Positions 4,664 through 21,600 of a stretch of DNA of 64,000 nucleotides are shown here, piece by piece; position 1 is the first letter of the stretch; each line of letters begins with the position of its first letter. Position numbers and translations under genes: made by a program. This DNA is from a virus. Below the pieces are notes generated by a model. It did no database searches. It was given only the letters and a program-made list of their open reading frames with translations, and was not told the origin of the DNA. The stretch covers positions 45,191-109,190 of the IMG/VR virus record IMGVR_UViG_3300025853_000040; one strand, written 5' to 3'.

Positions 4664-7600
4664 CTAAACTACCGTAGTTGACTGTTCCTCGGCTTGTCTT
4701 TCACGTATATATTGACCTATTCTTTCACCACTAAGTTCAACAACAATATTAAAACTTTCTTGACCCATAGCTTCACCCATATTTCTTACATTTTGATTTA
4801 ATTCCATAAACATTTGTGTCAACTCTGGTGGCATTTGAATTACTCCGCCACCTCCACCGCCACCGTCTTTGGATTGTGCATATTCTTTCTTACTCATGCT
4901 CATCATATGTCGTTCTAAAAATTCAGAACCACCAGCAGCTGATCCAATACTTTCTGTTAACTTAGTTATGTCTTTTGCATCTTCTGGGGTAAGACCTAAT
5001 GCCTCTGCAGCTTCTTCTTTCGTTTGATAACCTCTATCTTTTCTCCATCTTTCTAATATATTATCAGCTGAAGATTGAAGATCACTTAAATTTGTGCTTT
5101 TACCAGCCATACTGGTTTGCATTTTTTGGTAATCAGTTTCTTTAAGTGTATCTGATTCTTTGTTAAAAAGTCTCTTATTCCAAAAGGCTGTAGTTGACTC
5201 ATCTATATCTTGATCAGTTAAATATGAAAAAATATTACCTATCTCATTGTTATTTAATCCAGCATTTGCAAACATTGTTTGTATAGCTACAAGAGTTCTA
5301 CCTCTTGAACTTGGTTTTTTACTAGCTTGACGTAATTTTTTTCTTGAGGCTGCACTAAATGTTTTTAAATCTTGATTTTCAATAGCTCTTTGGAGATCAG
5401 CCAGCGCATCTCCTCTCTTAACAGCCCTAGAACTACCAGCTATTTTATCACCTAATAACGCACCTCCTATTTGCAAACCTAACCCAGCTATCATCCCATA
5501 TGGGCCTGCAGCCATTAATGCAGTTCCTGCCGCGGATGTTCCAGATTGAACAGCAGCTGCAACATTTCTTTTACCAAAACCACCTGTTGCTAATTGTAAC
5601 CCAGCTGTTCCTAAACCTTGTAATGTGGCTGCACCTGCTGCGGAAGACCAAAAACCTCCACCGGTTTCTGCCTCACCAAAAATAGCGGATTTTGCTTTTC
5701 CCAACTGGCCACCAACAAACCGGCCGACTTTGGATTCACCTAACCCTTTTATAAAATCAGAAGCACCTTTATAAACACCGGTGCCTCTAAGTTTATCCAT
5801 ACCACTTCCAATACCATCTCCAGCCCAATTGTAAATTCCACTAGCCAGTTTACCACCTCTACTGTTTTTAAGATAATTTGATACACCGCGCGCGTCAGAT
5901 CCCACCTTTTCGGTAAACGCACCCCAAGGTCGATCTAACCAACCTTTCCCACTACCAGTTTGTTCTCGGTCTGCTATACGACGAATCTCATCGGGCCTTG
6001 AGCTTAGTAGCTCGAGGCCAGAACCACCAAGACCAAACATACCTGCTCCGAGTAATTGGTTTCTATAATCTGTAAAACTATATGGATCGCCATATCTTCC
6101 TCTACCATATGCCGCTAACCCTCTTCGAGTTGTATTGTTCATAAGCATTGCACTTGGATCATTTAACTCATTTCTATTTGCTTGGCGTGCACGAGCTGCC
6201 TGTCTATTGTTGAATATTTTTTGTGTTCCATATCTTCCAGCCGATAATAAAGCTGTGCTAAGACCTATTCCAATAGACTTTTTCCAATTGTTATCCAACA
6301 CTCTAGACATTGACATGGCTCTTATACCTTGTGTAATAGCCATAGAGTTCCTATCCAAGAATGAACCCTCATTACCTATATTACTAACAATCCAGTCTAA
6401 TCTTTGTTCCATACCTTTATTTGTTGCTATATATCTACCTACAGCATTCCAACCATCTCTTTTATATTCACCCCACATATCATACATATTATGTAGTAAC
6501 TCAACAGTTTGACGATAATCACCTGTTAAGCTTTTTCGCCACTCTTGATATTCTCTTACAAAACCATCTTTAAAACCTTCCATAAAATTCTTAGGTAGAT
6601 CTTTAATAGGATCTGTAAGTGGACTAAAATCTGTTCCTCTATAAGCTCCGGGTAATCTTAACCCTCCTAAACTACTACCAGCTCCACGACCGCCACCTAA
6701 TACACCACCATCACCAGTGTTTCTTTCAATATCCATTAACACTGACAATCTTTCATCATGTTGAGCTTTTAAATCTCTTCTATAAGCTCTATTTATGGCC
6801 ATCGCCTCTTGTTCTCTTCTTGTTTGTTCCGCAAAACTACCGGCATCACTAACAACTCCACGATTTCTGTTTCCGTATATAGTTCTATTACCGGAGCTTA
6901 CAAAGCCTCCATCAAAGAAACCGGGAACACCAATAGAGGCAAGTTCGTTGGCAACATCTGAAGATACTGGCATACCATTTCTTATTCTTTCTGTGGGAAT
7001 TATAACCTCTCTTCTGTTCTCTTCACCAACCATAAATAATGAAGGACTACCAACAACCCGGCCCGTAGCAGCCTTATCAATATACATATTCTTTAACATA
7101 CCCAAACCGGCAGCTGCTGCAGCAATAGCCATACCCTTTGGTCCAAAAAATGGAGCAACCATAGTTAATAAACTCAAAGTTTGATCAATAACGTCACCAC
7201 CAAGGAAAGATGTTGCTGCGGCAGCTGTGCCTACAGCCGCAACACCCATACCTGCTTTTCCTATTCTTCCACCACCAACACCACCACCAACACCACCACC
7301 AACACCACCACCATTAACCACACTTACATACATTGGCGCTAATCTAGATACTCCTCTTCCAACTAATGCTTTAACTACTGTAACGAGAGTAGGAATAGCA
7401 ACAGCTATAGTGCTAATAGCTGCAACATCACTGCCACCCATAACACTTCTAAGACCTCTATACATATCTCTAACATATAACATACCTTGTTTAAGAGGTT
7501 TAATCATAGTCATAGCTCTTTGAGCTAAATTAGTAAATCCGGGTAAAAACTCAGATATTAGTGTGTTTTTCATGTTCTCAAAAGTGGTTCTTTGTTCTCT

Positions 7601-8836
7601 TAGTATATCATTTATTTTGGCTTGTTCACCTTGTTGTTGTTTAGCTAATTCTAAATCAGATTTAGTCATTCTAGCTATTTTTAGCATTTCATCATAATTC
7701 ATACCAAGTTGTTGACCTAATTGTCTAGCATAACCCGGATACATCTGAAGCGTCCTTAATCCTTGAGGGGAAGATAATAACCCATGAAGATCATTCATTA
7801 CGCCGACAACATCGCCTTTCATAGCTTTACTAAACATTTCCATAGAGTTTAAGCTTCCACCAAATGCAACATTTAATTTATTAATTAATTCTGTTCCGCT
7901 ATCAAAGTTTAGAAAAACATCTGTCATACTCTGCATCTTATTCATATTGACATTTGTTAGTCTTGAATAAGCCGACATATCTAATAGGTATTGTGCTCCC
8001 TTTGCCGCATGCATTGCTACAAGATTTGAATTAGCTGCCATATCTCTTATTATAGTAGCAGTAGCTTGACCACCTGCGGTGGCTGTAGCTAATTGTCCAA
8101 TAAAGTTTTTGACTTGATTAGTTGTCATACCAAAACCTTTAATCATAGTGGACATCAGTTTACCAGTTTGATCTGCTGACAAACCAGTATAATCAGCCAA
8201 CTGCGCATTAAATTTTATGAGATCTTGAGTTAGTCTTCTTTGGGAACCAAGAGCAGTTACTAATCCCACAGCTGCCTTGGCATTTTTTTCCATACTTATG
8301 CCAAACTGTAAATTACCCTTATAGGCTTCTATTGTCATATCTCTAACATTTTTTAACTGTTGACCATAAAACCCAGTTTGTTTAGAGATACTAACAACAG
8401 CATTTTCTATCTTTTGAAACTCTTTAAAAATAAGAGCCGCAGAAGCTAAAAGACCACCTCCTGCGGCTGTTAAAACACCACTTAAATTTTTATTACCTAA
8501 AACAAATCTACTTAATGCTTCAAGAGGTCTTTGCATACCTTTTAGAATAGAGTCTATACCATTTTGTAATGACTTACCTATAATTGGTATTTGTTTTGTA
8601 AATTCATTTGTTATAGAACTTAGATTGTTTTGTATACTTCTGGTTAGTTTATCTACAGCTTGTTGCTGTCTCTTTATTGCGTCTTCTTGTTTTTTTGTTG
8701 ATTTATCAACATTATCAACATGACCTTTCAAAACTTCTGACATTTCTGAAAAGGCAGAGTCTAACGTTTTTATAGAGAAAGAAGTTTTCTCTACAGTATC
8801 TTGAAGATTTGATAATGTTAATGAAATATCAGCCAT
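4664..8836 (-). CDS. Tail tape measure protein
   Basis: This 1390-residue protein sets tail length and is carried inside the tube. Residues 1-95 are coiled coil (many Q, K and heptad leucines). There are hydrophobic segments near 120-140, 470-495 and 525-590, and long Ala/Gly/Met-rich helices across 150-450. Near residue 505-525 a Gly-Val tract (GGGVGGGVGGG) is encoded by a short tandem DNA repeat at about 7268-7312. Around 620 comes the EENRREVIIPTERI stretch often found in tape measure C-halves. The C-terminus is polar and ends in a Glu/Gln-rich helix. Length, composition and position just after tube and chaperone genes make this call firm. The exact tail length cannot be inferred by eye. 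Confidence 0.9.
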   Translation of the reverse strand: MADISLTLSNLQDTVEKTSFSIKTLDSAFSEMSEVLKGHVDNVDKSTKKQEDAIKRQQQAVDKLTRSIQNNLSSITNEFTKQIPIIGKSLQNGIDSILKGMQRPLEALSRFVLGNKNLSGVLTAAGGGLLASAALIFKEFQKIENAVVSISKQTGFYGQQLKNVRDMTIEAYKGNLQFGISMEKNAKAAVGLVTALGSQRRLTQDLIKFNAQLADYTGLSADQTGKLMSTMIKGFGMTTNQVKNFIGQLATATAGGQATATIIRDMAANSNLVAMHAAKGAQYLLDMSAYSRLTNVNMNKMQSMTDVFLNFDSGTELINKLNVAFGGSLNSMEMFSKAMKGDVVGVMNDLHGLLSSPQGLRTLQMYPGYARQLGQQLGMNYDEMLKIARMTKSDLELAKQQQGEQAKINDILREQRTTFENMKNTLISEFLPGFTNLAQRAMTMIKPLKQGMLYVRDMYRGLRSVMGGSDVAAISTIAVAIPTLVTVVKALVGRGVSRLAPMYVSVVNGGGVGGGVGGGVGGGRIGKAGMGVAAVGTAAAATSFLGGDVIDQTLSLLTMVAPFFGPKGMAIAAAAAGLGMLKNMYIDKAATGRVVGSPSLFMVGEENRREVIIPTERIRNGMPVSSDVANELASIGVPGFFDGGFVSSGNRTIYGNRNRGVVSDAGSFAEQTRREQEAMAINRAYRRDLKAQHDERLSVLMDIERNTGDGGVLGGGRGAGSSLGGLRLPGAYRGTDFSPLTDPIKDLPKNFMEGFKDGFVREYQEWRKSLTGDYRQTVELLHNMYDMWGEYKRDGWNAVGRYIATNKGMEQRLDWIVSNIGNEGSFLDRNSMAITQGIRAMSMSRVLDNNWKKSIGIGLSTALLSAGRYGTQKIFNNRQAARARQANRNELNDPSAMLMNNTTRRGLAAYGRGRYGDPYSFTDYRNQLLGAGMFGLGGSGLELLSSRPDEIRRIADREQTGSGKGWLDRPWGAFTEKVGSDARGVSNYLKNSRGGKLASGIYNWAGDGIGSGMDKLRGTGVYKGASDFIKGLGESKVGRFVGGQLGKAKSAIFGEAETGGGFWSSAAGAATLQGLGTAGLQLATGGFGKRNVAAAVQSGTSAAGTALMAAGPYGMIAGLGLQIGGALLGDKIAGSSRAVKRGDALADLQRAIENQDLKTFSAASRKKLRQASKKPSSRGRTLVAIQTMFANAGLNNNEIGNIFSYLTDQDIDESTTAFWNKRLFNKESDTLKETDYQKMQTSMAGKSTNLSDLQSSADNILERWRKDRGYQTKEEAAEALGLTPEDAKDITKLTESIGSAAGGSEFLERHMMSMSKKEYAQSKDGGGGGGGVIQMPPELTQMFMELNQNVRNMGEAMGQESFNIVVELSGERIGQYIRERQAEEQSTTVV
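7268..7312 (-). repeat. Short tandem repeat encoding (GGGV)n in the tape measure gene
   Basis: The plus strand shows CACCACCAACAC repeated about three times in register with codons, giving a Gly-Gly-Gly-Val linker. Such a repeat can expand or contract by slippage without breaking the frame. It lies between two hydrophobic blocks of the tape measure protein. Confidence 0.75.
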
Positions 8837-8842
8837 TATTAA

Positions 8843-9052
8843 TTATCTGTTTTGAGATAATCTATCTATCTTTTTATTCTTGATTTGACGCATTAATGTT
8901 TTTAACTTCATTCTACCTTGTGGTGTTTTTCTCATTTCTCTTTCAATTCTGTCGCCCTCTTGATAAGCTTTACGAAGAGCTTCAAATTCTTTATCTGATA
9001 AACCACTAAGTTTTTTCATTATTCTAGCTAGAATTCCTAATTTTCCCATCAT
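8843..9052 (-). CDS. Small basic protein upstream of the tape measure gene
   Basis: This 69-residue protein is strongly basic and helical (KLSGLSDKEFEALRKAYQEG, then KTPQGRMKLKTLMRQIKNKK). A GGAG ribosome site precedes the ATG, and the stop lies 6 bases before the tape measure start, so the two are probably co-translated. Small helical proteins at this place are often tail-assembly or tape-measure-associated factors, but I do not recognise a family. A candidate late promoter motif (9080-9087) lies 28 bases upstream. Confidence 0.7.
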   Translation of the reverse strand: MMGKLGILARIMKKLSGLSDKEFEALRKAYQEGDRIEREMRKTPQGRMKLKTLMRQIKNKKIDRLSQNR

Positions 9053-9079: not shown

Positions 9080-9087
9080 AATAAATA
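9080..9087 (-). promoter_or_regulatory. Candidate late promoter element TATTTATT
   Basis: On the minus strand the sequence reads GGGGTATTTATTATATG, 28 bases before the start of the 69-residue gene. The same octamer recurs before several other transcription units. It overlaps the 3' arm of the terminator at 9083-9125, so part of it may simply be the U-tract of that terminator. Confidence 0.3.
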
Positions 9088-9125
9088 CCCCTTAGTATAG
9101 AAAAATAGAATACTAAGGGGTATTT
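9083..9125 (-). terminator. Strong hairpin, intrinsic terminator
   Basis: Perfect 16-base inverted repeat: arms 9083-9098 and 9110-9125 (AAATACCCCTTAGTAT and its complement) with an 11-base loop. It starts one base after the stop of the frameshifted chaperone extension at 9126. On the minus strand the stem is followed by an AT-rich stretch. It probably ends the transcript of the zinc-ribbon/chaperone gene. Because the arm ends in T or A on both sides it might work in both directions. Confidence 0.8.
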
Positions 9126-9333
9126 TTATTGAGATTGTTGATTAGCTTTGTTTTCAGCTTCTTTTATATCAACTATTTTCTTAACCCACCATCTTCTTAA
9201 ATAAACTGGTAAATTATAACAATCTGAAAAAGTCATATTGCCATAATGAACACAAACAAAAATATCATTTAATATATTTTCTTTTATTATCTGAAAATGT
9301 TTTTGTGGTGTATTAGCTGTCAGGCCAAAAAAA
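9126..9333 (-). CDS. Frameshifted extension of the tail chaperone-like protein
   Basis: After the seven-T run at 9333-9327 a shifted frame (+1, or equally -2) stays open for 66 codons and stops at 9126-9128. The extension contains FVCVHYGNMTFSDCYNLP, then VYLRRWWVKKIVDIKEAE and a Gln-rich end. The 'Y-G, Asp, hydrophobic-Pro, Y-L-R-R-aromatic' pattern is what I expect in T-type extensions of tail assembly chaperones made just before the tape measure gene. There is no ATG, GTG or TTG in this frame before the internal Met of NMTF, and no ribosome site, so independent translation is unlikely. The fused product would be about 342 residues from the ATG at 10155. Confidence 0.7.
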
Positions 9334-10155
9334 CGAAACAGAGATGGGCATCTCTACCTCCTCAGAATTACCACAGTGCGGACAAGAAAAATCCTGCTTC
9401 ATATCCAGATCTGGTTCGTGATCTTCAATATATTTTCTAATAGATCTTGAATCTCTTACCGGCATATTTTCAACATACTTATTAATAATCTCTTTGTCAG
9501 CATCACCATTAACACTTATAATATGATTCTTCAATCTTATTGTTATGTTTTGATCTAATGGAGAGTTTGTAGCTTTCTTCATTTTTTCTTGAAGTTCAGA
9601 GATTTGTCTTTCTTCTGCAGTGTTTAAAAACTTAAACTCAATAGAAACACCAGAAGGAGTATCAAACTTAAATCTGTTATCTCCCTTTTGTTCTGGTTGT
9701 ATTTCTAAATCTTTTACACCTACATTACCTAAATCAAAATCATACTCCACATCATTAGAGCATGAAGAACACCTTATTTCTGTTTTGTATTCTGGACCGT
9801 AACCAGTAATTCTTAAAAAGGTTAAGATTGCGTTTTTATCACCAGAAATCATCTCATCTACTTTAATTGTTTTATCAACAATACAACTTGACAATAGGTA
9901 ATCTAACGCCTTACCACTTCTAAGTAAAGAACGAGATGTTAAAATATCCTCATCTGAAGCTGTTAGAAATCTTACTTCAAGTTGTTCCTTCATATGCAAT
10001 GATGACTCTGGAGGATATATAACTCCCTTAGATGGTATCGGAACAAAATCAGTAGGAACAGAAAAACCAGCTTTATTACCACTATCTGGCTTTTCTGTTT
10101 TTTTATCTTGCGGGGGAGATATAGATTCTACCCCAGCTGTAATATCTTCGGCCAT
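9313..10155 (-). CDS. Zinc-ribbon baseplate/tail assembly protein (T4 gp26-like, Pfam T4 baseplate type)
   Basis: I start at 10155 (MAEDITAG) rather than the ATG at 10173, because AAAGGA precedes 10155 and nothing precedes 10173. The 280-residue protein has a proline-rich opening (FVPIPSKGVIYPPES), an LxFLTASDEDILTS-like segment shared with T4 gp26-type baseplate proteins, and two CxxC knuckles (about residues 129/132 and 258/261) that could form a split zinc ribbon. The gene is upstream of the tape measure, where chaperone genes sit in most long-tailed phages. Its last codons contain a seven-T run that probably lets some ribosomes shift into the extension described separately. The zero-frame product ends WPDS. 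Confidence 0.75.
   Translation of the reverse strand: MAEDITAGVESISPPQDKKTEKPDSGNKAGFSVPTDFVPIPSKGVIYPPESSLHMKEQLEVRFLTASDEDILTSRSLLRSGKALDYLLSSCIVDKTIKVDEMISGDKNAILTFLRITGYGPEYKTEIRCSSCSNDVEYDFDLGNVGVKDLEIQPEQKGDNRFKFDTPSGVSIEFKFLNTAEERQISELQEKMKKATNSPLDQNITIRLKNHIISVNGDADKEIINKYVENMPVRDSRSIRKYIEDHEPDLDMKQDFSCPHCGNSEEVEMPISVSFFWPDS
9327..9333 (-). promoter_or_regulatory. Programmed frameshift site (T7 run)
   Basis: On the minus strand the codons read TCG TTT TTT TGG, a seven-T slippery run five codons before the zero-frame stop. Moving +1 (or -2) enters a 66-codon open frame. A -1 slip gives only Leu-Ala before a stop. The site is in the gene just before the tape measure region, where frameshifting is a recognised feature of tail chaperone genes. 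Confidence 0.65.
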
Positions 10156-10227: not shown

Positions 10228-10262
10228 AAAAACATCCCTTGAATTTTTCAAGGGATGTTTTT
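10228..10262 (-). terminator. Intrinsic terminator after the tail tube gene
   Basis: Inverted repeat with arms 10228-10242 (AAAAACATCCCTTGA) and 10248-10262 (its complement) and a 5-base loop. On the minus strand the GC-rich core is followed by a run of T. It lies 25 bases after the stop of the tube gene and before the zinc-ribbon gene. Confidence 0.85.
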
Positions 10263-10286: not shown

Positions 10287-10781
10287 TTAAAATCTTAATA
10301 TACAATCATCAGGTCTAATTGTGATATCGACATTCATTGGTTCGCCATTGGCCATATCATATGCGCCAAAGTTAACCTCTGTGCACCAACACCCACGTAG
10401 ATCCCACTCTTCAACTGTAGCTCCTACTGGATCTAGAGCCTTTAGTGAAATGTTCTTCTTATAGAAGGCTGCATATCCGTCACGACCAGAGATGGTCTCA
10501 TGTTGAAGTCTAACCCACTCCATAACCTTCTGAGCTGAAGATGGAGCGATTGGATCATATAGTGACATAGAAATTGTTCCCCACTCACCCTTACCAGCCA
10601 AATATCTCTTCTGATTTAAATAATCAATAGTGATTGGAGCGGCAGTGTAAGTAGGTCTAGATGTTGTGCGAGCCACAAAAGCAGGGATTGTATCATCAGC
10701 GAACTGAAAGATAAATCTATTCTGCCTTTTGGGTTCAAATGTATCTGCCAACATTACATTTACTTCAAATGGTGTTGCCAT
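10287..10781 (-). CDS. Tail tube protein (T4 gp19 type)
   Basis: This 164-residue protein is the size of T4-type tube subunits, which stack as rings to form the inner tail tube. It opens MATPFEVNVMLADTFEPKRQ and then NRFIFQF, the usual tube start in which the substrate-like beta strand follows an Arg-Gln-Asn. It also has the PITIDYLNQKRYLAGKGEWG region with a Trp-Gly turn, and a C-terminal beta strand ending in DITIRPDDCILRF. A CGGAG ribosome site precedes the ATG. The gene follows the sheath gene by 64 bases and ends in its own terminator, as is usual for a very abundant protein. The call is firm. Confidence 0.9.
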   Translation of the reverse strand: MATPFEVNVMLADTFEPKRQNRFIFQFADDTIPAFVARTTSRPTYTAAPITIDYLNQKRYLAGKGEWGTISMSLYDPIAPSSAQKVMEWVRLQHETISGRDGYAAFYKKNISLKALDPVGATVEEWDLRGCWCTEVNFGAYDMANGEPMNVDITIRPDDCILRF

Positions 10782-10845: not shown

Positions 10846-13485
10846 TTAAACCTCATCAAAGCTCGCGCCTTGAGGAGATACTGTAAAATCAAAGACAATA
10901 ACTTCTGCAGCACTTGTTGGCTTTAGGAAGATCTTACCCATCATAATATTTCTATCAATCAAATCGGGTGTTGTTGTTGTTTCATCAAGAATAGCTCTGA
11001 ACTCTGTTAAACCATTGGCTGATTGAACACTAGATAGAACATTATTAACTCTATTTAGTAGTTGTTCTCTAACTGTGGCTGAGTTCTGCTCGAACAAGAA
11101 TGTGCGAGCAATTCTTGAAATGTCTTTTCTAACACTTAATAACATTCTTCTAACATTAACTCTATCAAGAACAGATGCCTTACTCTGCAATGTCTTCTGG
11201 CCGAAAACAGCTGATCCTTGATTTGTAAATGAAGAAATTGGATTGATATTTTCCTTGTATAATTCATCTCTCTGAGATTGTGTCAAAGGTCTTGTTGGAG
11301 TAATACCACCACGAAGAGATCCTCTTCTAAACCCTGCAGGTGCATACCAAGGACCACCAGCTCTGTCATTAAATGCATATACACCTAACATTTGAATTGA
11401 TGGAGGAATTACTTTACCTTGAAATCTAATCCAAGGATAATATGTAGCAGCATAACTGCTGTCATATTTTGCCACCTCGGATAAAGCAGATGATATAGAC
11501 ATTCTACCATTAGCATCCATATCAGAAGCGTCTGTTCCAATATCTAATAGATAAAATGCATCACCTCTACCCTTAACCATATTAATGGCTAATTGTGGAA
11601 TTTCACCAACATTTGCACTGTGAACACCGGGTGTTGCCAAGATATCAAAATCATAAATATCTGGATTGCTTAGAATATTAATTGCGTCAATATATGAGGC
11701 ACTTAAACTATCTGTTGATGCATTAAGAGCTTTGACTTTATCAGTTCTATAATCAAAACCATCAAAACCACCCGTAAATGGAACATTAAACCTAATTAAA
11801 TCATTTTGATTAAATTGAGTTGTATTCTGTGTTGTATCAATTATTTCAAACTCTGTTATATTATTTGTTTTTGAAGAATATTCAATTGTAACACTCAATC
11901 CAGCAATATTAGAGCCGGTCGAGCTAGCTTGGGCCGATCCATCCTCATCATTCGCAATAGCAATTACATTCGAGCCCAACTGGCCAAAGACAGTAAACGT
12001 TCCGATGAGTTCACCCGGCGCATCTGCGCCTGAGATAGTTATTTTATCATCAGCTGATACATCATATGTTGCACTAAGAGTAATAGTGTGCGTGTTTGCA
12101 GCTGTGGCCGCAAAGTTATATGACACTGTTTGTTCAGTAAGATTCAACACACCACCTTCGCCAGTTCCAGAAACTGTCAAATAACCCTTTTCTGTAACTA
12201 ATGCGTCTGTAGCTGTTGATGAACCAACAGTTGTTGATGTTTTCTTAAGTCTATCAACCATACCGTTGTCTGAATAATCAATACCAATTAATCCTTCTAG
12301 CCCACCACCAATTGAATTATGATTTAATGTATATGACAATGGAGCAATTGCAACAGAATTACCAACATTATACTCAATGCTAGATATTCCACGAGCGCCA
12401 GCTGGCTTGTGTGAAGATGTTATATTATTAGCTACTTCAACTCTAACATAATTATTTGTTACTTGATACTCACCATTGTATGTTACTAATGGTGGTGTTT
12501 CACTGAAATCATACACTGGATAAGCGTCACCAACAACTTTAGCTATGTAATTAGATGCTTCGGGATTTAATGATACACTACCAAAAGATTTTGACCAACC
12601 AGCATCTGTAAATCCGGGATTTGTTCCTTGATTTGCTGTAATACCAACAACAGTTACATCAAATGTAGGCCATTCATCTGCCTCATTCTCTTCAACATTT
12701 GATATTTGAACATACATGCTTTTGTTTTCAGCGTCACCAGAACCAATTGAATGAAATCTAAAAAGATTAGATACTGAATTTCCTAAGTTCTGAGAAACCA
12801 CCCAAGGAGTTCCTGCTTCTGAAAAACCACCCCCGATTGAATCAAAATCAACTGAAACATCTACCGCGGAGGAGCCATTAGCTATCTCACCTGTAACACT
12901 AGATACGCCATATCCATAAACAGTATCAACAAAGACATCTGGAAGAGGGCTAGATGAATCAGCATTAACTGCATCTGTTCCCAATCTATTAATTATAAAA
13001 CCATCAGCTTGTGGGTCCATACTTAGACCACTTGCTGTTGATGAACCAACCACTAATTCAAAATTCTCAGCTTTTCCTTTAATAGATATAGTGTCTGTTC
13101 CAGTTCTTTGTCTAACGATACCTAATATTACATTATTAACGTCATCCAAAGCTGTAGCCGATCCAGTGGCTGGGAATGCCAATAAACCAGCTTTTCCCAT
13201 AGTGGCAGAATCTTTACCTAAAACTCTAACAAAGGTAGTTCTATTACCTTCATTCATATAAGCGTTAACCGCCTGATATGTATAACCCTCTGCACCGTCA
13301 GTTTTTACACCAAATCTGTTGGCAAAAGTGTTTGCGTTGGTAAAACTTACTGGCACAAAGGCTGGTCCTTTTTCACTAAGACCTATAATAGCCGCACCAC
13401 CAACACCACCACCACCTACATTTGGTCTAAATGTCTGGTCGATTTCTTGAGTATACACACCGGGAGATACAAATACTTGAGCCAT
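10846..13485 (-). CDS. Contractile tail sheath protein (T4 gp18 type)
   Basis: This 879-residue protein opens MAQVFVSPGVYTQEIDQTF, the classic sheath N-terminus whose strand joins neighbouring subunits. Then come a Gly-rich turn and AAIIGLSEKGPAFVP. The C-terminal 250 residues carry the other conserved sheath core: YYPWIRFQGKVIPPS, GVYAFNDRAGGPWYAPAG and NVRRMLLSVRKDISRIAR, ending in a strand with FDFTVSP. The middle (about 150-560) is an insertion rich in Ser, Thr and Gly, probably surface domains, which explains why it is longer than T4 gp18. TTGGAGAAT precedes the start. It is followed by the tube gene, the normal order. Confidence 0.93.
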   Translation of the reverse strand: MAQVFVSPGVYTQEIDQTFRPNVGGGGVGGAAIIGLSEKGPAFVPVSFTNANTFANRFGVKTDGAEGYTYQAVNAYMNEGNRTTFVRVLGKDSATMGKAGLLAFPATGSATALDDVNNVILGIVRQRTGTDTISIKGKAENFELVVGSSTASGLSMDPQADGFIINRLGTDAVNADSSSPLPDVFVDTVYGYGVSSVTGEIANGSSAVDVSVDFDSIGGGFSEAGTPWVVSQNLGNSVSNLFRFHSIGSGDAENKSMYVQISNVEENEADEWPTFDVTVVGITANQGTNPGFTDAGWSKSFGSVSLNPEASNYIAKVVGDAYPVYDFSETPPLVTYNGEYQVTNNYVRVEVANNITSSHKPAGARGISSIEYNVGNSVAIAPLSYTLNHNSIGGGLEGLIGIDYSDNGMVDRLKKTSTTVGSSTATDALVTEKGYLTVSGTGEGGVLNLTEQTVSYNFAATAANTHTITLSATYDVSADDKITISGADAPGELIGTFTVFGQLGSNVIAIANDEDGSAQASSTGSNIAGLSVTIEYSSKTNNITEFEIIDTTQNTTQFNQNDLIRFNVPFTGGFDGFDYRTDKVKALNASTDSLSASYIDAINILSNPDIYDFDILATPGVHSANVGEIPQLAINMVKGRGDAFYLLDIGTDASDMDANGRMSISSALSEVAKYDSSYAATYYPWIRFQGKVIPPSIQMLGVYAFNDRAGGPWYAPAGFRRGSLRGGITPTRPLTQSQRDELYKENINPISSFTNQGSAVFGQKTLQSKASVLDRVNVRRMLLSVRKDISRIARTFLFEQNSATVREQLLNRVNNVLSSVQSANGLTEFRAILDETTTTPDLIDRNIMMGKIFLKPTSAAEVIVFDFTVSPQGASFDEV

Positions 13486-14025: not shown

Positions 14026-14814
14026 CTAATTTAAACTTAATGTTCCAAGTTTCTTACAATTCTCAGCAGCATAATTATCTGCTTCTTTTAATGAATCATA
14101 TATGTTTTTTTCACATACAATATTATATATAAATGATGCAAAGAAAGAGTCACCCGCACCAATACTATCTATAAAATCATATTTTGTATGACCACCGCCG
14201 TTTTGTAAAATATGGCTATATCCATAATATTTGTATCCTTCAATACCTAATGTAACAATTACATTAGGAAAATATTTGCTAATATCATCTCTATAATCTT
14301 TTTCATATTCTAAAAATGTTTTATTATTTATTTTTAGATAATCAGCGCCATAATATTCACTATTTACTATATTTGTATCTATAAAAGAAGTTATGTTTTT
14401 ATTTTTAGCTTCTTTTATTAGTAAGTTTATTTCATAATCTGTTATTAATCCTTTATGATAGTTTGATATTACAAGGAAATCACCTTCATTTAAATCATTT
14501 ATTAAATTTTGAACCATTCCTTTGTTATGTTTTACACTATCTCCATGATCAAACCTATATATGGGGTTATGGTCTATATAAAATCTCTCTTTAATTATTT
14601 TATCTTCATTTGTATAAAAAGCTATTTCATGGTATTTGTTTTCTTTAAAGAGAAAATTTAGATGTTTAATCAAATTAGCGGCACCGCCATCAGTGTCAAC
14701 TTTTTCTTTATTAGATAAAATAACTGGAACTTTTGTTGCAGGATCTATTCTATTAGAATGCATAAAAACATATCTATCTATAAATGACTCACCTATTACG
14801 TGTAATTTCTTCAT
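14026..14814 (-). CDS. PfkB-family sugar kinase (HldE/RfaE kinase-domain-like)
   Basis: This 262-residue protein should phosphorylate a sugar or sugar phosphate with ATP. It opens with a beta strand and GESFIDRYVF, as HldE-type heptose kinases do (GDVMLDRY), then has a DPATKVPVI segment and a DGGAANLIKHL helix matching the GGAANVA nucleotide-sugar region. The PfkB signature lies at residues 215-228, IDSIGAGDSFFASF, with the catalytic Asp at about 222. No nucleotidyltransferase domain follows, so only the kinase half of HldE is present. The start overlaps the previous gene by 26 bases, which suggests coupled translation with the sugar cluster. The exact substrate is inferred from context. Confidence 0.8.
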   Translation of the reverse strand: MKKLHVIGESFIDRYVFMHSNRIDPATKVPVILSNKEKVDTDGGAANLIKHLNFLFKENKYHEIAFYTNEDKIIKERFYIDHNPIYRFDHGDSVKHNKGMVQNLINDLNEGDFLVISNYHKGLITDYEINLLIKEAKNKNITSFIDTNIVNSEYYGADYLKINNKTFLEYEKDYRDDISKYFPNVIVTLGIEGYKYYGYSHILQNGGGHTKYDFIDSIGAGDSFFASFIYNIVCEKNIYDSLKEADNYAAENCKKLGTLSLN

Positions 14815-15583
14815 ACATCCTCTGATATATATTTCTGTTATCTATTCTAAGATATTCAATATTTTCTGATATTCTACCAAAAGTTTTTAATTGACGTTCA
14901 TAATAACCAGCCTTAGATGTGTCTTTGTTAACATACTCTGATCCATCAACTGATTCTAAATCAAACAAATCACAAACTAAACTATCAAAAACACATTCAC
15001 TATCACGTTTTTTTGCAACAGAAAACGCCTTTTCAATAACCATAGGAACAAAGACTTTACTTCCAACACAAACAAACAAACCTCTTTTTGTATTTTCTAC
15101 TAACTTACAAAGTCTTAAAAAATCATTATAAGAAGCTTTTGCCCACTGTGCGGGATCAAAGTTTCCATACATTTGAAATATATCATGACCTATACCAATA
15201 GATACAATAGGTTGCACTTGATTCTGATGGGCTTGCCAAAATACTGATTTATCTCTATGATTACCTTGCCAACCAATGAAGTTAGAAATCAACTTACCTA
15301 ATGAATCAGTTCTTGTAAGGCTGATAAAGTTGTTTATATCACCACATACTCTTCTATTCCAACCAAACTTACCCTCTTTGATTGTAGTTTCAACATCCTC
15401 ACTGGTATCGTCATACAAAGCAATCTCTGTATCATGTAAGATAGAAGCTCCATTAGTTACAAATGCATCTATCTTACCAGTTTCAAATAATGGTTTTAGC
15501 TGTTCAACACATCTATTCTTTATTGTGTGTGCGCCGAAACCAAGTATTATTGTATCATATTGATCAATATTGTTTAGTAACAT
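14789..15583 (-). CDS. Deoxyhypusine-synthase-like conserved protein of sugar clusters
   Basis: I start at 15583 (MLLNNIDQYD), because GGAAGG precedes it; the frame upstream is open but lacks a ribosome site. The 264-residue protein has a Rossmann-like opening (TIILGFGAHTIKNRC), the segment DAFVTNGASILHDTEIALYD followed by TSEDVETTIKEGKFGWNRR, and later IVSIGIGHDIFQMYGNFDP and FVCVGSKVFVPMVIEKAF. I recall bacterial proteins with this pattern as a conserved family resembling deoxyhypusine synthase, found beside sugar kinases of the heptose type; their reaction is not known to me. It overlaps the carbamoyltransferase stop by 20 bases and the PfkB start by 26, so the genes are coupled. Confidence 0.7.
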   Translation of the reverse strand: MLLNNIDQYDTIILGFGAHTIKNRCVEQLKPLFETGKIDAFVTNGASILHDTEIALYDDTSEDVETTIKEGKFGWNRRVCGDINNFISLTRTDSLGKLISNFIGWQGNHRDKSVFWQAHQNQVQPIVSIGIGHDIFQMYGNFDPAQWAKASYNDFLRLCKLVENTKRGLFVCVGSKVFVPMVIEKAFSVAKKRDSECVFDSLVCDLFDLESVDGSEYVNKDTSKAGYYERQLKTFGRISENIEYLRIDNRNIYQRMYEEITRNR

Positions 15584-17390
15584 AAAAACCTTCCATAACA
15601 AGAGTGTCAATTTCTGTTTTTATAAAGCATTTCATTGCATCTTCTGGAGTTTCTACAATGGGTTCTCCCTTATCATTAAATGATGTATTTATGATTACAG
15701 GAACACCAGTTAATTCATCAAACTTTTTTATGATATCATATATTCTTCCATTATCCTCTGAAATCGTCTGTAATCGTCCAGAATCGTCTATATGAACACC
15801 AGAGGGAATATCACTACCCCTAATTGATTTGTGACTAAATAACATGAATGGTGACTCATATCCTTCTTCTACATCAAACCACTCATGAGCTTTCTCTTTT
15901 AATACCATAGGAGCAAAAGGTCTAAACTCTTCTCTGTGTTTTACATTCTTATTTAGTTTATCTTTCATATCTTTGTTGCGTGCATCTGCTAGTATACTTC
16001 TATTACCTAAGGCTCTTGGGCCTATTTCAGATCCGCCTTCAAAATAAGCTACAATCTTTCCTTCAGATATATCTTTTGTTATTTTATTAATAATATCATC
16101 ATTTGATAATTTTTCATAATTTAATTTAGGTTTATTTATATTTAAATATTCCTTTATTGTTGATTGTATTTCTTGATCGTCATAAATCTTACCGCCAGTA
16201 AAAGTATCAGATATTGTATACCCTACTTTTTTCTTATTTGTCATTTCTATACTCATCTCACCTTTTTTATTTTTGCGAATTTGTTCCGCAATAAAAATGG
16301 ATGCACCTATTGATAATCCATCATCTCCCGGTGCTGGTGGTATGAAGAAATTATAATCTGGAAAAGCTTTTTGTAATTTCCCATTAGCAACACAATTCAA
16401 AACAGTTCCACCAGATAAACATATATTTTTTGTATTTTTTACATTAGACAAAATTTCTTTTATCATATTAATCATTGAAGCTTCTAATATATGTTGTGTG
16501 TCTGCCGCAATGTTTTTATTTATTTTTATTTTCCAATCTTTTTTATCTAACCAAGATATATCTTCAACCCCACCTTCTCCTTTAAGTTGTGGGTAAAAAA
16601 CTCTTCGTTCTGGTATATTCGGCATACCATGTCTATACAATAATGAATTATATTGATCTCCATGAAATAATTGACCTATTCTTTTTACAGTTGGCCACTC
16701 TAATCCATTAACTATATTTTCATTTACTTTACCGTATGCTGACAAAGCCATTACTTTGCCAGCATCAGTAAGAGATGGGAAAAAACCTAAGTAATCACAC
16801 ATAGAACCATAAAAGCTACCTATATCAAAATCACCCCCTCTACGGATTGGACGATAAAACTTTAAATCGTCATTAAAATAATATACTGAGTGTGATGTTC
16901 CCATATTATCTGCAAAATCAACAGATAAACAAATTGCATCTCTAAAAGGAGACAAGTAATACGATGTTGCACAATGTGAAAAATGATGATCAACAAAGAA
17001 AACAGGAATGTTTTGTTCACCTATTTGCATTTCATAAACACCTTGTGCAACCATATTAGTGTTTTGATGAAAGTTAAACCAATCTTCTTGTGTGTATTCA
17101 ACTCCATTAGCATCAACAATAGAAAAATCTTCTTTTGTTTTATCCCAAAGTTCTGTTCCTTCTAAATCTTTATCCCAAAACCAATTCGTTATAACTGCAC
17201 AATCAACATCTTTTAATTTAATTCCTTCTTTATCCAAAATGTATTTAATTGTTTTTTTATTTATCCCTCGTTCCTTCTTGTTTCTAGTTAATCTTTCAGT
17301 TGCAATATAACCAACCATCTTTCTATTTTTAACAAGAGAAACACTGCCATCATGGCCACAATTTAAACCTAATACATAAGAATTTTTCAT
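15564..17390 (-). CDS. Carbamoyltransferase (NodU/TobZ family)
   Basis: This 608-residue protein should transfer a carbamoyl group from carbamoyl phosphate, through a carbamoyl-adenylate, to a hydroxyl of a sugar. The N-terminal Kae1-like domain shows YVLGLNCGHDGSVSLVKN, an ATERLTRNKKERG segment, and the metal-binding FVDHHFSHCATSYYLSPF near residue 130-150. There is a central NICLSGGTVLNCVANGKL loop. The C-terminal YrdC-like part carries GSEIGPRALGNRSILAD and VPVIINTSFNDKGEP with the usual spacing. Length and motifs match full-length members. Its ATG overlaps the glycosyltransferase stop (TAATG), so the two are translationally coupled. It likely decorates the glycan made by this cluster. Confidence 0.92.
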   Translation of the reverse strand: MKNSYVLGLNCGHDGSVSLVKNRKMVGYIATERLTRNKKERGINKKTIKYILDKEGIKLKDVDCAVITNWFWDKDLEGTELWDKTKEDFSIVDANGVEYTQEDWFNFHQNTNMVAQGVYEMQIGEQNIPVFFVDHHFSHCATSYYLSPFRDAICLSVDFADNMGTSHSVYYFNDDLKFYRPIRRGGDFDIGSFYGSMCDYLGFFPSLTDAGKVMALSAYGKVNENIVNGLEWPTVKRIGQLFHGDQYNSLLYRHGMPNIPERRVFYPQLKGEGGVEDISWLDKKDWKIKINKNIAADTQHILEASMINMIKEILSNVKNTKNICLSGGTVLNCVANGKLQKAFPDYNFFIPPAPGDDGLSIGASIFIAEQIRKNKKGEMSIEMTNKKKVGYTISDTFTGGKIYDDQEIQSTIKEYLNINKPKLNYEKLSNDDIINKITKDISEGKIVAYFEGGSEIGPRALGNRSILADARNKDMKDKLNKNVKHREEFRPFAPMVLKEKAHEWFDVEEGYESPFMLFSHKSIRGSDIPSGVHIDDSGRLQTISEDNGRIYDIIKKFDELTGVPVIINTSFNDKGEPIVETPEDAMKCFIKTEIDTLVMEGFYVTKQY

Positions 17391-18654: not shown

Positions 18655-21600
18655 TTATGTCCAAGAATTAGCCTCATATGTAAGACTTGCATGGATTGTA
18701 GCTGGAACAGAAGAAATATCTGCAGGAGCTAGTTCTGTGTCAAAATTACTGCTATCAGTCCATCTATACAAACCAGCTTCTGTTGTATTTGGCCCTATGT
18801 TTAGAGTAATTGCCCCCCCACCGTTATTAAACCCTCTTGTGAAAGAAGATATACCCGCGGATCGGTAGTTGGCATCAGTATTTGATGTAAATGGCAGACC
18901 CCCAATTCTCAATTGACCGCTGCCACCAGAGATACTTGATATATCAATTTTTATTTGCACTGTTACTAAATTACCTATTCTAGTATATCTACCATATTGA
19001 ACTGAATATCCTACTGTTGGGTTACTAGTGCTCGCGACAATTGTTGGTGTAAAACTGTTTGTTTCATAAAAAGTGTCACCGTTTTGATATATATCACCAT
19101 TAACCTCCAATTTTGGTGTTACTATAGTTTTATGAGCACAAACCTCACCATCACAGGTTATAGTCATTCTATCTATAGCGCAATAACTACTTCCTGATCC
19201 ATAAACCGAAGTATAAAACCTTATATCACCATAAAGAGAACTTCCTCCCGTATTAGGGTTGACGGAATAAATACCAACACCGTCGCCGAATGCCATATGT
19301 CCTCTTAATGTATTTCCACCACCACTGAATCCAGTATAAGGTCTACATACCATCAAATCTGGGAGGAAACCATTTGGTCGGAAAGTGCCAGTAGTGGTGC
19401 CATTATATCCGTTAAAATCCCCATCAGAACCAGAAGAACCGTGAACGGTAAGACGAAAGCTTGGCGCGTCCGTTCCTATGCCGACATTTTCATTAGCGAG
19501 AATGATCATAGCGGCAGTCGCTGCGGCAAGGTTATCACCAGTTCCATTACTTGTAGTGCCTGCATTAACTGAAAATTGTATAGAGTTTCCTCCAGCTCCG
19601 TTATCAGTAGCTATAATCAATCTATCAGCACTATAATCATAACCAAAATAACCAACACCTTGACCAGAAGAGTGAGCTATAAATAAAGCGTCATTATTAT
19701 TAGATGCTACACCAATATATCTTGCAGTGCCCGAAGTATTCGTAAAAGCGGTGTTGTATGCTTCATTTACAGAAAGATTGCCAGCACTAGTTACTCTCAT
19801 TTTTTCAGCAGTTGTTCCACCACTTCTTGTGTCAAATCTAAGATAACCATTACTAGCATCTACTCTTTTACCATATATTGCAGCGTGTGCAGCAGCTTCA
19901 GACCAACTATTAGTTGTAGTGTGAAAAAATATTCCGTGACCATCATCAGCTCCTGTAGAGTTATGCTCTAAAAGAATATTACCACCCTTAAGTGTTAGTA
20001 ATGATGGAGGCCTAGTTTCACCTATGCCAACATTACCACCTGTTGTTACAGCAAATTTTGCTTCTGATGTATTATTATCGTTTGTTGTATTCAAAGACCA
20101 TGTGTTGAAGTGATCGCTACCACCTCTACGCAATATACCTTGATACCAGATTATACTTCCTTTTGTCCCTAATCTTATCGCTGCTGAGCGCACAGGCTGT
20201 GCAGTTGTTTCATATTGCTTTATTGTAAGAAATGCTCCGCCATCGCTGTGTGTGTTTTCAAAATAAGCAATATCACTATCGGAGCTGTATTCATCAGCAA
20301 CATGAAGTCTGGCTAATGGTGTAGTGTTACCACCTATACTAACGTCACCATCACCAGTTATTCTCATATATTCTGTTCGCGCTGGCCCAACTGCAAAATT
20401 TAAAAACCCCTTTTCTGAACCGGCAGTGCAAACTTCTATACCACCACCTATGAAACCATATTCTATATCATTAGTTACATCTGCGCTGTTTCCGTGACTA
20501 AAACGAACACCTATAGAAGAATTAACTGCATTGTCTTGTCTTTTTAAATCTAATATGCCGAAATTACCTCCATTTGTAGATGGAGTTATAATAGTTGCGA
20601 CAGTAGCATTTCCCTCACCCAAAACTGATAATTGACGGGGTGGTTCCACCATATTAATGCCAACAAAACCAGCATTAGTTATTCTCATTTTTTCATCGTT
20701 GTCAGTAAGGAAACGTATAAAGTTTGTTCCATTACCATTACCGGCGTGTATTTCAAAATCGTGGTTTGTTATAGTTCCTATTCTACCATTATCCGCACCA
20801 CTACTTGGGCTTTGTATTTCTACCGTTCTACCAGCATCATCTTCTAATCGTATTTTACCTATTCCAGCATAAGAAGAAACGTGAAGTTGAGTAACGGGAT
20901 TGGTTTCGTTTATGCCAACATTACCGGCGGAATTAATACGTAATCTTTCATCGCCTAAACCCCCATTTATTCTTGTGTGAAAAACTAATGCACCACCATA
21001 GTTAGCATCAACTGTGTTTTCCTTTACAGCTCCTATAACACCAAAGGTAGTTGCGTTAGAAAGACTATCATACTTACCAAGAAATATTATACCAGCGCCA
21101 GCTGTTCCAGAGTTATAGCTATCTGTTCCTTCTATCATAATTGTTGAAGGAACAGCAAAGGTTGTTTCATTAGATGATTTAATATGTAGTGCGCGGCTAG
21201 GTCCTGTTACACCTATGCCAACATTACCACCGTTGGGGTTTAATAATAAATCATTATAACCAGTTCCGTTAATACCCGCTTGCAAAAATCCCTTATCAGT
21301 AGATGTGTCAAAACCAATATTTAGGCGTTTGTTTGTATTAGTATCACCACTTATGACAACTTGCCCGGAGATCTGATTGTAACTACCTCCAGCAACATCA
21401 CCCTGTATGTGCAGTTTAAGCAGGGGTGATTCGGTTCCTATGCCGACATTACCTAAAATATTTGCCGGACCAGAATCACTATTAATATTTGTTTTTCTTA
21501 CTATAATATTAGAAACACAAGTAGGTATTGTGCCAGCTGAGTAATTAACTAATAAATGTGGTTCTATATATCTTACTGGCCCGCCATCACTACCATTAAA

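Follow-up and report, generated by a model that had tools for sequence, protein, structure and literature searches.

The gp26-like gene upstream of the tape measure gene in this marine phage very probably yields two products, a short protein and a minor longer form made by +1 ribosomal slippage near the 3' end, which would act as tail-assembly chaperones; no expression data are available, and the function is inferred.

The window, i.e. the whole stretch of DNA analysed (64,000 nucleotides), is part of the 109,190-base IMG/VR virus record IMGVR_UViG_3300025853_000040 (stretch 45,191 to 109,190). The gene order on its minus strand is sheath, tube, gp26-like protein, shifted frame, a 69-aa ORF and tape measure. 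The gp26-like gene thus lies between the tube and tape measure genes, as for G/GT-type chaperones, with one small ORF intervening. The features of the region are as follows.

10846..13485, minus strand: tail sheath protein (PF04984, E 3e-10; PF17482, E 4e-8)
10287..10781, minus strand: tail tube protein, gp19-like (phrog_4542, E 3e-28)
9313..10155, minus strand: gp26-like zinc-ribbon protein, short form, 280 aa, MAEDITAG...SVSFFWPDS (PF12322, phrog_150, AlphaFold2)
9126..10155, minus strand: predicted fusion, long form, 342 aa from M at 10155, ...SVSFF-GLTANT... (translation skipping one base; no proteomic evidence)
9357..9362, minus strand: Shine-Dalgarno-like AGGAGG, upstream of the hairpin and 5 nt before an in-frame ATG (9351-9349) (sequence)
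9340..9355, minus strand: upstream hairpin AGAGAT-GCCC-ATCTCT, with 6 nt between its 3' arm and the first TTT (excess stability)
9325..9333, minus strand: putative shift site TTT TTT TGG, T7 run at 9333-9327 (conserved YTT then TGG)
9126..9326, minus strand: +1-frame extension, T-like domain, 66 aa, GLTANTPQ...QQSQ plus stop (selection, AlphaFold2)
9083..9125, minus strand: terminator-like hairpin directly past the stop of the extension (16-bp stem, -22 kcal/mol)
8843..9052, minus strand: 69-aa ORF in the gap between chaperone gene and tape measure gene, function unknown (ORF list; weak phrog_28040 match, E 0.003)
4664..8836, minus strand: tape measure protein, 1390 aa (length and position; no confident family match)

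The gp26-like gene and its extension

The gp26-like gene ends with TCG TTT TTT TGG CCT GAC AGC TAA (SVSFFWPDS*), and the +1 (or -2) frame is open from 9353 to 9126, 75 codons from stop to stop. The 66 residues that follow the junction contain the motif YLRRWWVKK. The T run, the shifted 66-codon frame and this motif, all reported in the initial annotation, are present, and its description is accurate apart from two refinements: the T7 run, placed five codons before the stop, starts six codons before it, and -2 is disfavoured. The strong terminator said to close the frame corresponds to the 16-bp hairpin at 9083-9125, which is T-rich with a loop of 11, but has no clean U tract and is absent from the terminator-scan list.

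A second terminator-like site follows the tube gene (10228-10262, minus strand), and the chaperone gene, flanked by this site and the 9083-9125 hairpin, may form its own transcription unit. An ORF similar in size to the 69-aa ORF at 8843-9052 occupies the same place in Microcystis phage Mel-JY01. Beside the tail genes (14026-17390, minus strand) lie two enzyme genes: 14026-14814 encodes a sugar kinase of the PfkB type, and 15564-17390 (minus strand) a full carbamoyltransferase with both Pfam N and C domains. This pair is adjoined by the gene of a 1895-aa protein (18655-24342).

The gp26-like protein matched the Pfam family PF12322 (T4_baseplate) with an E-value of 9e-17 and 61.9 bits, against a curated cut-off of 24.5, and phrog_150 (baseplate hub) with an E-value of 3e-20. 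The short form and the extension were modelled apart and not as a fusion; AlphaFold2 returned a confident gp26-like model for the former (mean pLDDT 90.7) and a two-helix hairpin for the latter (pLDDT 86.5). Many of the viral predicted structures that matched are named baseplate hub proteins. Searches of the PDB by sequence and by fold gave no significant match; the HK97 chaperone 2ob9 appeared in the fold search at rank 48 (E 4.7, probability 0.14) and was not counted as evidence.

A PHROG search with the extensions of the window's clade returned no consistent match. The sole Pfam family that the extensions repeatedly resembled was DUF6760 (PF20546), with a weak match in 14 of 21 homologues, and the extension in the window scored 17.9 bits, below the curated cut-off of 27. 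In 17 of 54 records a weak DUF6760 match was located just downstream of gp26 (positions checked by hand).

Conservation of the shifted frame and the slip site

Relatives were collected from fifteen phage records and about 110 further IMG/VR contigs, and all frames past the gp26 stop were read; three near-identical IMG/VR contigs carried little information. A long open shifted frame was kept in all 117 homologous loci (viral contigs and phage genomes) with a readable junction, in the +1 direction in 114 and in the -1 direction in three (LR756511, Stenotrophomonas RAS14 and Xanthomonas XacN1, all with U-UUU-UUN). The junction falls at the same Phe codon in these loci, and the protein alignment has no invariant residue beyond this Phe. 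Additional contigs catalogued with bacterial or archaeal genomes were +1 in 11 of 11 cases, and a scan of viral contigs using the Xanthomonas/Stenotrophomonas pair found no relatives. The loci reach down to about 21–39% protein identity, and the distant phage members share 21–38% with the window protein. The +1 isolates include Flavobacterium immuto, Microcystis Mel-JY01, Listeria LIS04, Bacillus SP-15, Streptococcus GXN1 and Rhodothermus RM378, the last with TTT TTT TGG as in the window. In the annotation of these relatives the extension was missed, or only a fragment was called.

Codon differences were counted in 18 independent pairs from the window's clade. In the +1 frame, 298 were synonymous and 152 non-synonymous, whereas the ratios were 45:413 and 39:412 in the other two frames. 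By codon position, there were 140 nucleotide differences at position 1, 68 at position 2 and 374 at position 3. The extension frame is under purifying selection, and the layout is far beyond chance. As far as comparative sequence data can establish it, the two-product layout and its conservation are demonstrated.

The extension could instead be made alone, by internal initiation or restart, and not as a fusion, for example from the ATG at 9351-9349 behind AGGAGG, followed by a frameshift, or by restart past the stop. The AGGAGG-5 nt-ATG arrangement does occur in the window, the distant kin Moby, R11Z, K575, VAP7, D531 and Cygsa01 have TAATG or TGATG stop-start overlaps, and GTGA overlaps were found in loci of extracellular contractile injection systems (eCIS). 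However, the ATG at 9351 is in frame 0, so that a shift would still be required, and in Melnitz only 7 nt separate the opening of the -1 frame from the gp26 stop. The only ATG of the extension in the window lies inside the domain and has no ribosome site. The first 15 shifted codons held no Shine-Dalgarno element plus start in any of 111 loci (81 and 30 from the two +1 clades), and 55 of the 69 non-redundant loci lack ATG, GTG or TTG in the first 12. Separate initiation is judged very unlikely. Of the outcomes that the initial annotation had named as refuting, a broken frame and a start that would let the second frame be made alone were not encountered (no broken frame in 117 scorable loci, no Shine-Dalgarno element plus start in 111), and its interpretation is supported.

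The AGGAGG-5 nt-ATG (9349-9362, minus strand) is in frame inside the gp26-like gene and could give a short C-terminal product. T4 gene 26 is likewise annotated with an internal in-frame start (26').

Among 69 non-redundant relatives, the second codon of the site was TTT in 59, CTT in nine and CTA in one (YTT in 68), and the A-site codon was TGG in 68, while the first Phe codon varied (58 TTT, 11 TTC). In the background, TTT makes up 68% of Phe codons and CTT 28% of Leu codons, and the bias at the second codon has a log10 p of about -15 if independence is assumed, i.e. shared ancestry is ignored. The conserved element is YUU-U-GG and not the T7 run. The check proposed in the initial annotation, whether the T7 run and the shifted frame are both kept in relatives, came out positive (frame kept in 117/117), with the correction that YTT-TGG is conserved in place of the run itself.

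The same frame could be reached by -2 ribosomal frameshifting, as in phage Mu. The frame alone cannot separate +1 from -2, which the initial annotation had left side by side, and a -2 case is known in phage tail genes (PMC5009743). YUU to UUU re-pairs in +1 in every variant, including TTC-TTT-TGG and TTT-CTT-TGG, but in the relatives with these two variants (20 of the 69 non-redundant loci) the tRNAs cannot re-pair two bases back, and therefore the shift is taken to be +1. Tandem -2 slippage on a U run would also need conservation of the base before the first Phe codon, which is not conserved. With the -2 alternative highly improbable on these grounds, a +1 movement of the tRNA is inferred from the site variants. 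The predicted junction peptide is SVSFFGLTANT for +1 and has one residue more, SVSFFFGLTANT, for -2.

RNA polymerase slippage on the T7 run, giving mixed mRNA of which a minority is translated normally as the fusion, is highly improbable: the run is present in the window and many relatives, but relatives with only T4 (TTC TTT TGG) or T3 (TTT CTT TGG) runs retain the shifted frame, and transcript slippage would require longer runs.

The second +1 clade has mostly UUU followed by C (CGN or CAY) at the site, which re-pairs as UUC. A few of its loci have CCC-AGT instead, and there the exact site is less sure. The junction in L114, L117-L119, L123 and L124 reads TTA/CTA-TTY-AAT-CCC-AGT, with the +1 frame kept without UUU-C or YUU-U; in this subgroup the shift may take place at CCC-A, two codons later.

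In the window's clade, folding of the stretch from -30 to -3 upstream of the site is stronger than in controls with synonymous codons (mean z -0.97, se 0.13), whereas other stretches gave z values of +0.19 to -0.44. An upstream hairpin was found in 62 of the 69 relatives, with its 3' arm ending a few bases before the site and in differing register. The hairpin is selected; that it pushes the ribosome forward is an inference. No excess stability indicative of a downstream RNA stimulator was detected in the +1 clade, and a Shine-Dalgarno element right before the slip codon was not clearly enriched over background. At the codon matching AGGAGG, relatives used GAG over GAA at 38:10, compared with a background of 346:485.

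According to the proposed mechanism of +1 slippage, most ribosomes would stop at 9315-9313 and release the short zinc-ribbon protein, gp26-like and the putative equivalent of lambda gpG. In a minority, holding peptidyl-tRNA-Phe on UUU with UGG as the A-site codon, the tRNA would re-pair one base forward (UUU-U), moving from TTT 9330-9328 to TTT 9329-9327 with GGC 9326-9324 as the next codon; the hairpin, folding behind the ribosome, would probably help this forward push. Continued translation would add the 66-residue helical hairpin, whose proposed counterparts are the T domain in lambda and, in T4, the C-terminal domain of gp51. Production of the fusion and its rate remain inferred, as there is no direct evidence of the fusion protein. 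Together, both forms may serve as tail-assembly chaperones that keep the tape measure soluble and bring tube or hub subunits to it. This role, including tape measure or tube binding and a fixed product ratio, is inferred from position, homology and T4 genetics.

Relatives in T4-like phages and injection systems

A +1/-2 shift had been thought unusual for such a gene. Within the gp26 family, +1 proved to be the rule, with -1 in T4-like cyanophages and some jumbo phages.

In all cyanophage loci fetched (80/80), gp26 ends with U-UUU-UUC and a small ORF follows in the -1 frame, which is closed 22–85 nt before the gp26 stop. From codon usage, the chance of U-UUU-UUC is about 0.14 per locus; it was seen in 48 of 48 non-redundant loci. 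The cyanophage -1 frame is under purifying selection (508:347 synonymous to non-synonymous, against 119:774 and 54:845). GAG and GGR codons are enriched 10–15 nt upstream of the site, as expected for a Shine-Dalgarno-like stimulator of -1 shifting, and no upstream fold signal comparable to that of the +1 clade was found in cyanophages. Synechococcus phage S-SCSM1 (L144:3150-3374) differs from the 80 other cyanophage loci in that its gp51-like domain is in +1 and has a possible start; this may be a real change with a start of its own, and an indel or sequencing error is not excluded.

A heptamer of this kind is shared by Melnitz (U-UUU-UUU), SRB7757, Moby, R11Z and K575, and Ackermannviridae-like phages are -1 with weaker sites. 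Restart is possible in the several -1 phages with a stop-start overlap.

Profile comparison (hhalign) of the extension of the window's clade gave 98% (E 1e-12) with that of the second clade and 90% (E 2e-6) with that of the cyanophages. The small ORF after cyanophage gp26 matched PHROG 634 with an E-value of 3e-24. T4 gp26 and gp51 both belong to PF12322 (9e-64 and 4e-52), and on this sequence evidence the two are paralogues; gp51 has about 48 further residues, which are covered by PHROG 634, 'baseplate hub assembly catalyst'. Compared directly, the gp51 tail and the extension of the window's clade matched only weakly (hmmsearch E 0.11, hhalign 0.16% probability), and their link rests on the cyanophage intermediate and on PHROG 634, which matches both gp51 and the cyanophage ORF. 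The inferred correspondence between the extension and the gp51 C-terminal domain of T4 is a wider point than any raised in the initial annotation. In T4, gene 26 lies at 115802-116428 on the minus strand and gene 51 at 116479-117228 on the plus strand, and the shifted frames after gp26 contained no extension-like domain.

The gp26 and gp51 proteins have been reviewed as hub assembly chaperones, gp51 being needed for hub formation, absent from the particle and of unknown function (PMC3004832). Atkins et al. (2016) described the G-T frameshift as widely conserved in long-tailed phages 'except T4' (PMC5009743). In cyanophages and marine vibriophages, Sullivan et al. (2010) found gp51 without its first ~200 residues ("truncated gp51"), and their paper makes no mention of frameshifting (PMC3037559); fusion with gp26 would supply the ~200 missing residues. 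No report of frameshifting in gp26, in gp51 or in cyanophages of the T4 type turned up in literature searches, which were confined to open-access papers, and earlier reports are possible.

Read most simply, gp26 and gp51 would be what T4 has as its short and long tail chaperone pair, split by duplication. We consider it fairly likely that T4 is no exception, with gp26 as the short and gp51 as the long form from duplicated genes. Its supergroup kin would rely on frameshifting, either +1 at YUU-U-GG, aided by a 5' hairpin, or -1 at U-UUU-UUC, and in bacterial eCIS the pair would persist as genes that overlap or are frameshifted. The shift would have switched direction several times, with the fused product kept. 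In the absence of expression data, the system appears to be the T4 supergroup's version of a G/GT-type tail-assembly chaperone, realised by +1 or -1 frameshifting, perhaps restart, or duplication.

In Actinomycetota, DUF6760 was present in 15 of 247 genomes. Eight loci were read (L237-L244), and in each of them the actinobacterial DUF6760 ORF immediately follows a zinc-ribbon protein gene, in its -1 frame; this protein aligned with gp26 by profile at 94% (E 1e-7). The two loci whose surroundings were checked lie beside sheath and injector genes or an eCIS-core gene. The junction sequence is GGGGGAAUCGUGA. A stop-start overlap follows a G5 run (GGGGGAATC) in seven of the eight loci, and the eighth (L244:1480-1650) has G7 and no nearby start codon, suggesting -1 frameshifting there. 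The eCIS connection is offered as a lead only.

If correct, this reading would give a concrete role to T4 gp26 and gp51, for which no mechanism is known although both are listed as hub assembly chaperones. It would also explain two published oddities, namely T4 without a chaperone frameshift and cyanophage and vibriophage gp51 without 200 residues. The loci also provide many natural +1 frameshift sites whose variants are defined, together with a hairpin as candidate 5' stimulator, and correct the annotation of many contractile-tailed phages in which the extension was missed or called as a fragment.

Comparison with known systems

Among the closest known systems are the G/GT tail-assembly chaperones of lambda, together with the frameshift rule reportedly formulated by Xu, Hendrix and Duda in 2004. 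The hallmark of a G/GT-type pair, a conserved 3'-end frameshift joining a second frame without a start of its own, is present here (117 loci). As in lambda, the gene lies upstream of the tape measure gene with the slip site near its 3' end, and a short form is accompanied by a predicted minor frameshifted long form with a small C-terminal domain. Unlike lambda, the protein belongs to the zinc-ribbon gp26 family and not to gpG, the shift is +1 at YUU-U-GG instead of -1, and no sequence similarity was detected.

The +1 frameshift of prfB (RF2) shares the YUU to UUU slip, and CTT-TGG, present in nine relatives, differs from the RF2 site CUU-UGA by a single base. The A site here holds the sense codon UGG and not a stop, and an upstream hairpin takes the place of the Shine-Dalgarno element 3 nt upstream; a prfB-type shift was rejected on these two differences. 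The halovirus HSTV-2 is a myovirus whose joined (+1) chaperone gene likewise directly precedes that of the tape measure, but it was rejected as prior art for the gp26 family since its chaperone has no PF12322 or PHROG 150 match. For Bacillus phage 0305phi8-36, paralogous genes were proposed in place of the G/GT frameshift (PMC2147016). This two-gene chaperone follows the same logic as proposed here for T4, with different proteins, the zinc-ribbon gp26 family being outside that proposal (PMC2147016).

The truncated gp51 of cyanophages and vibriophages resembles the extension in the window as a small ORF directly 3' of gp26 with a homologous domain, and covers the same region as the gp51 C-terminus (PHROG 634, E 3e-24; PMC3037559); the cyanophages differ in using the -1 frame at U-UUU-UUC instead of +1. 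In T4, the short form is in the same family as that of the window, and gp51 combines a gp26-like body with a C-terminal domain at the place of the extension, but the two are encoded by divergent paralogous genes.
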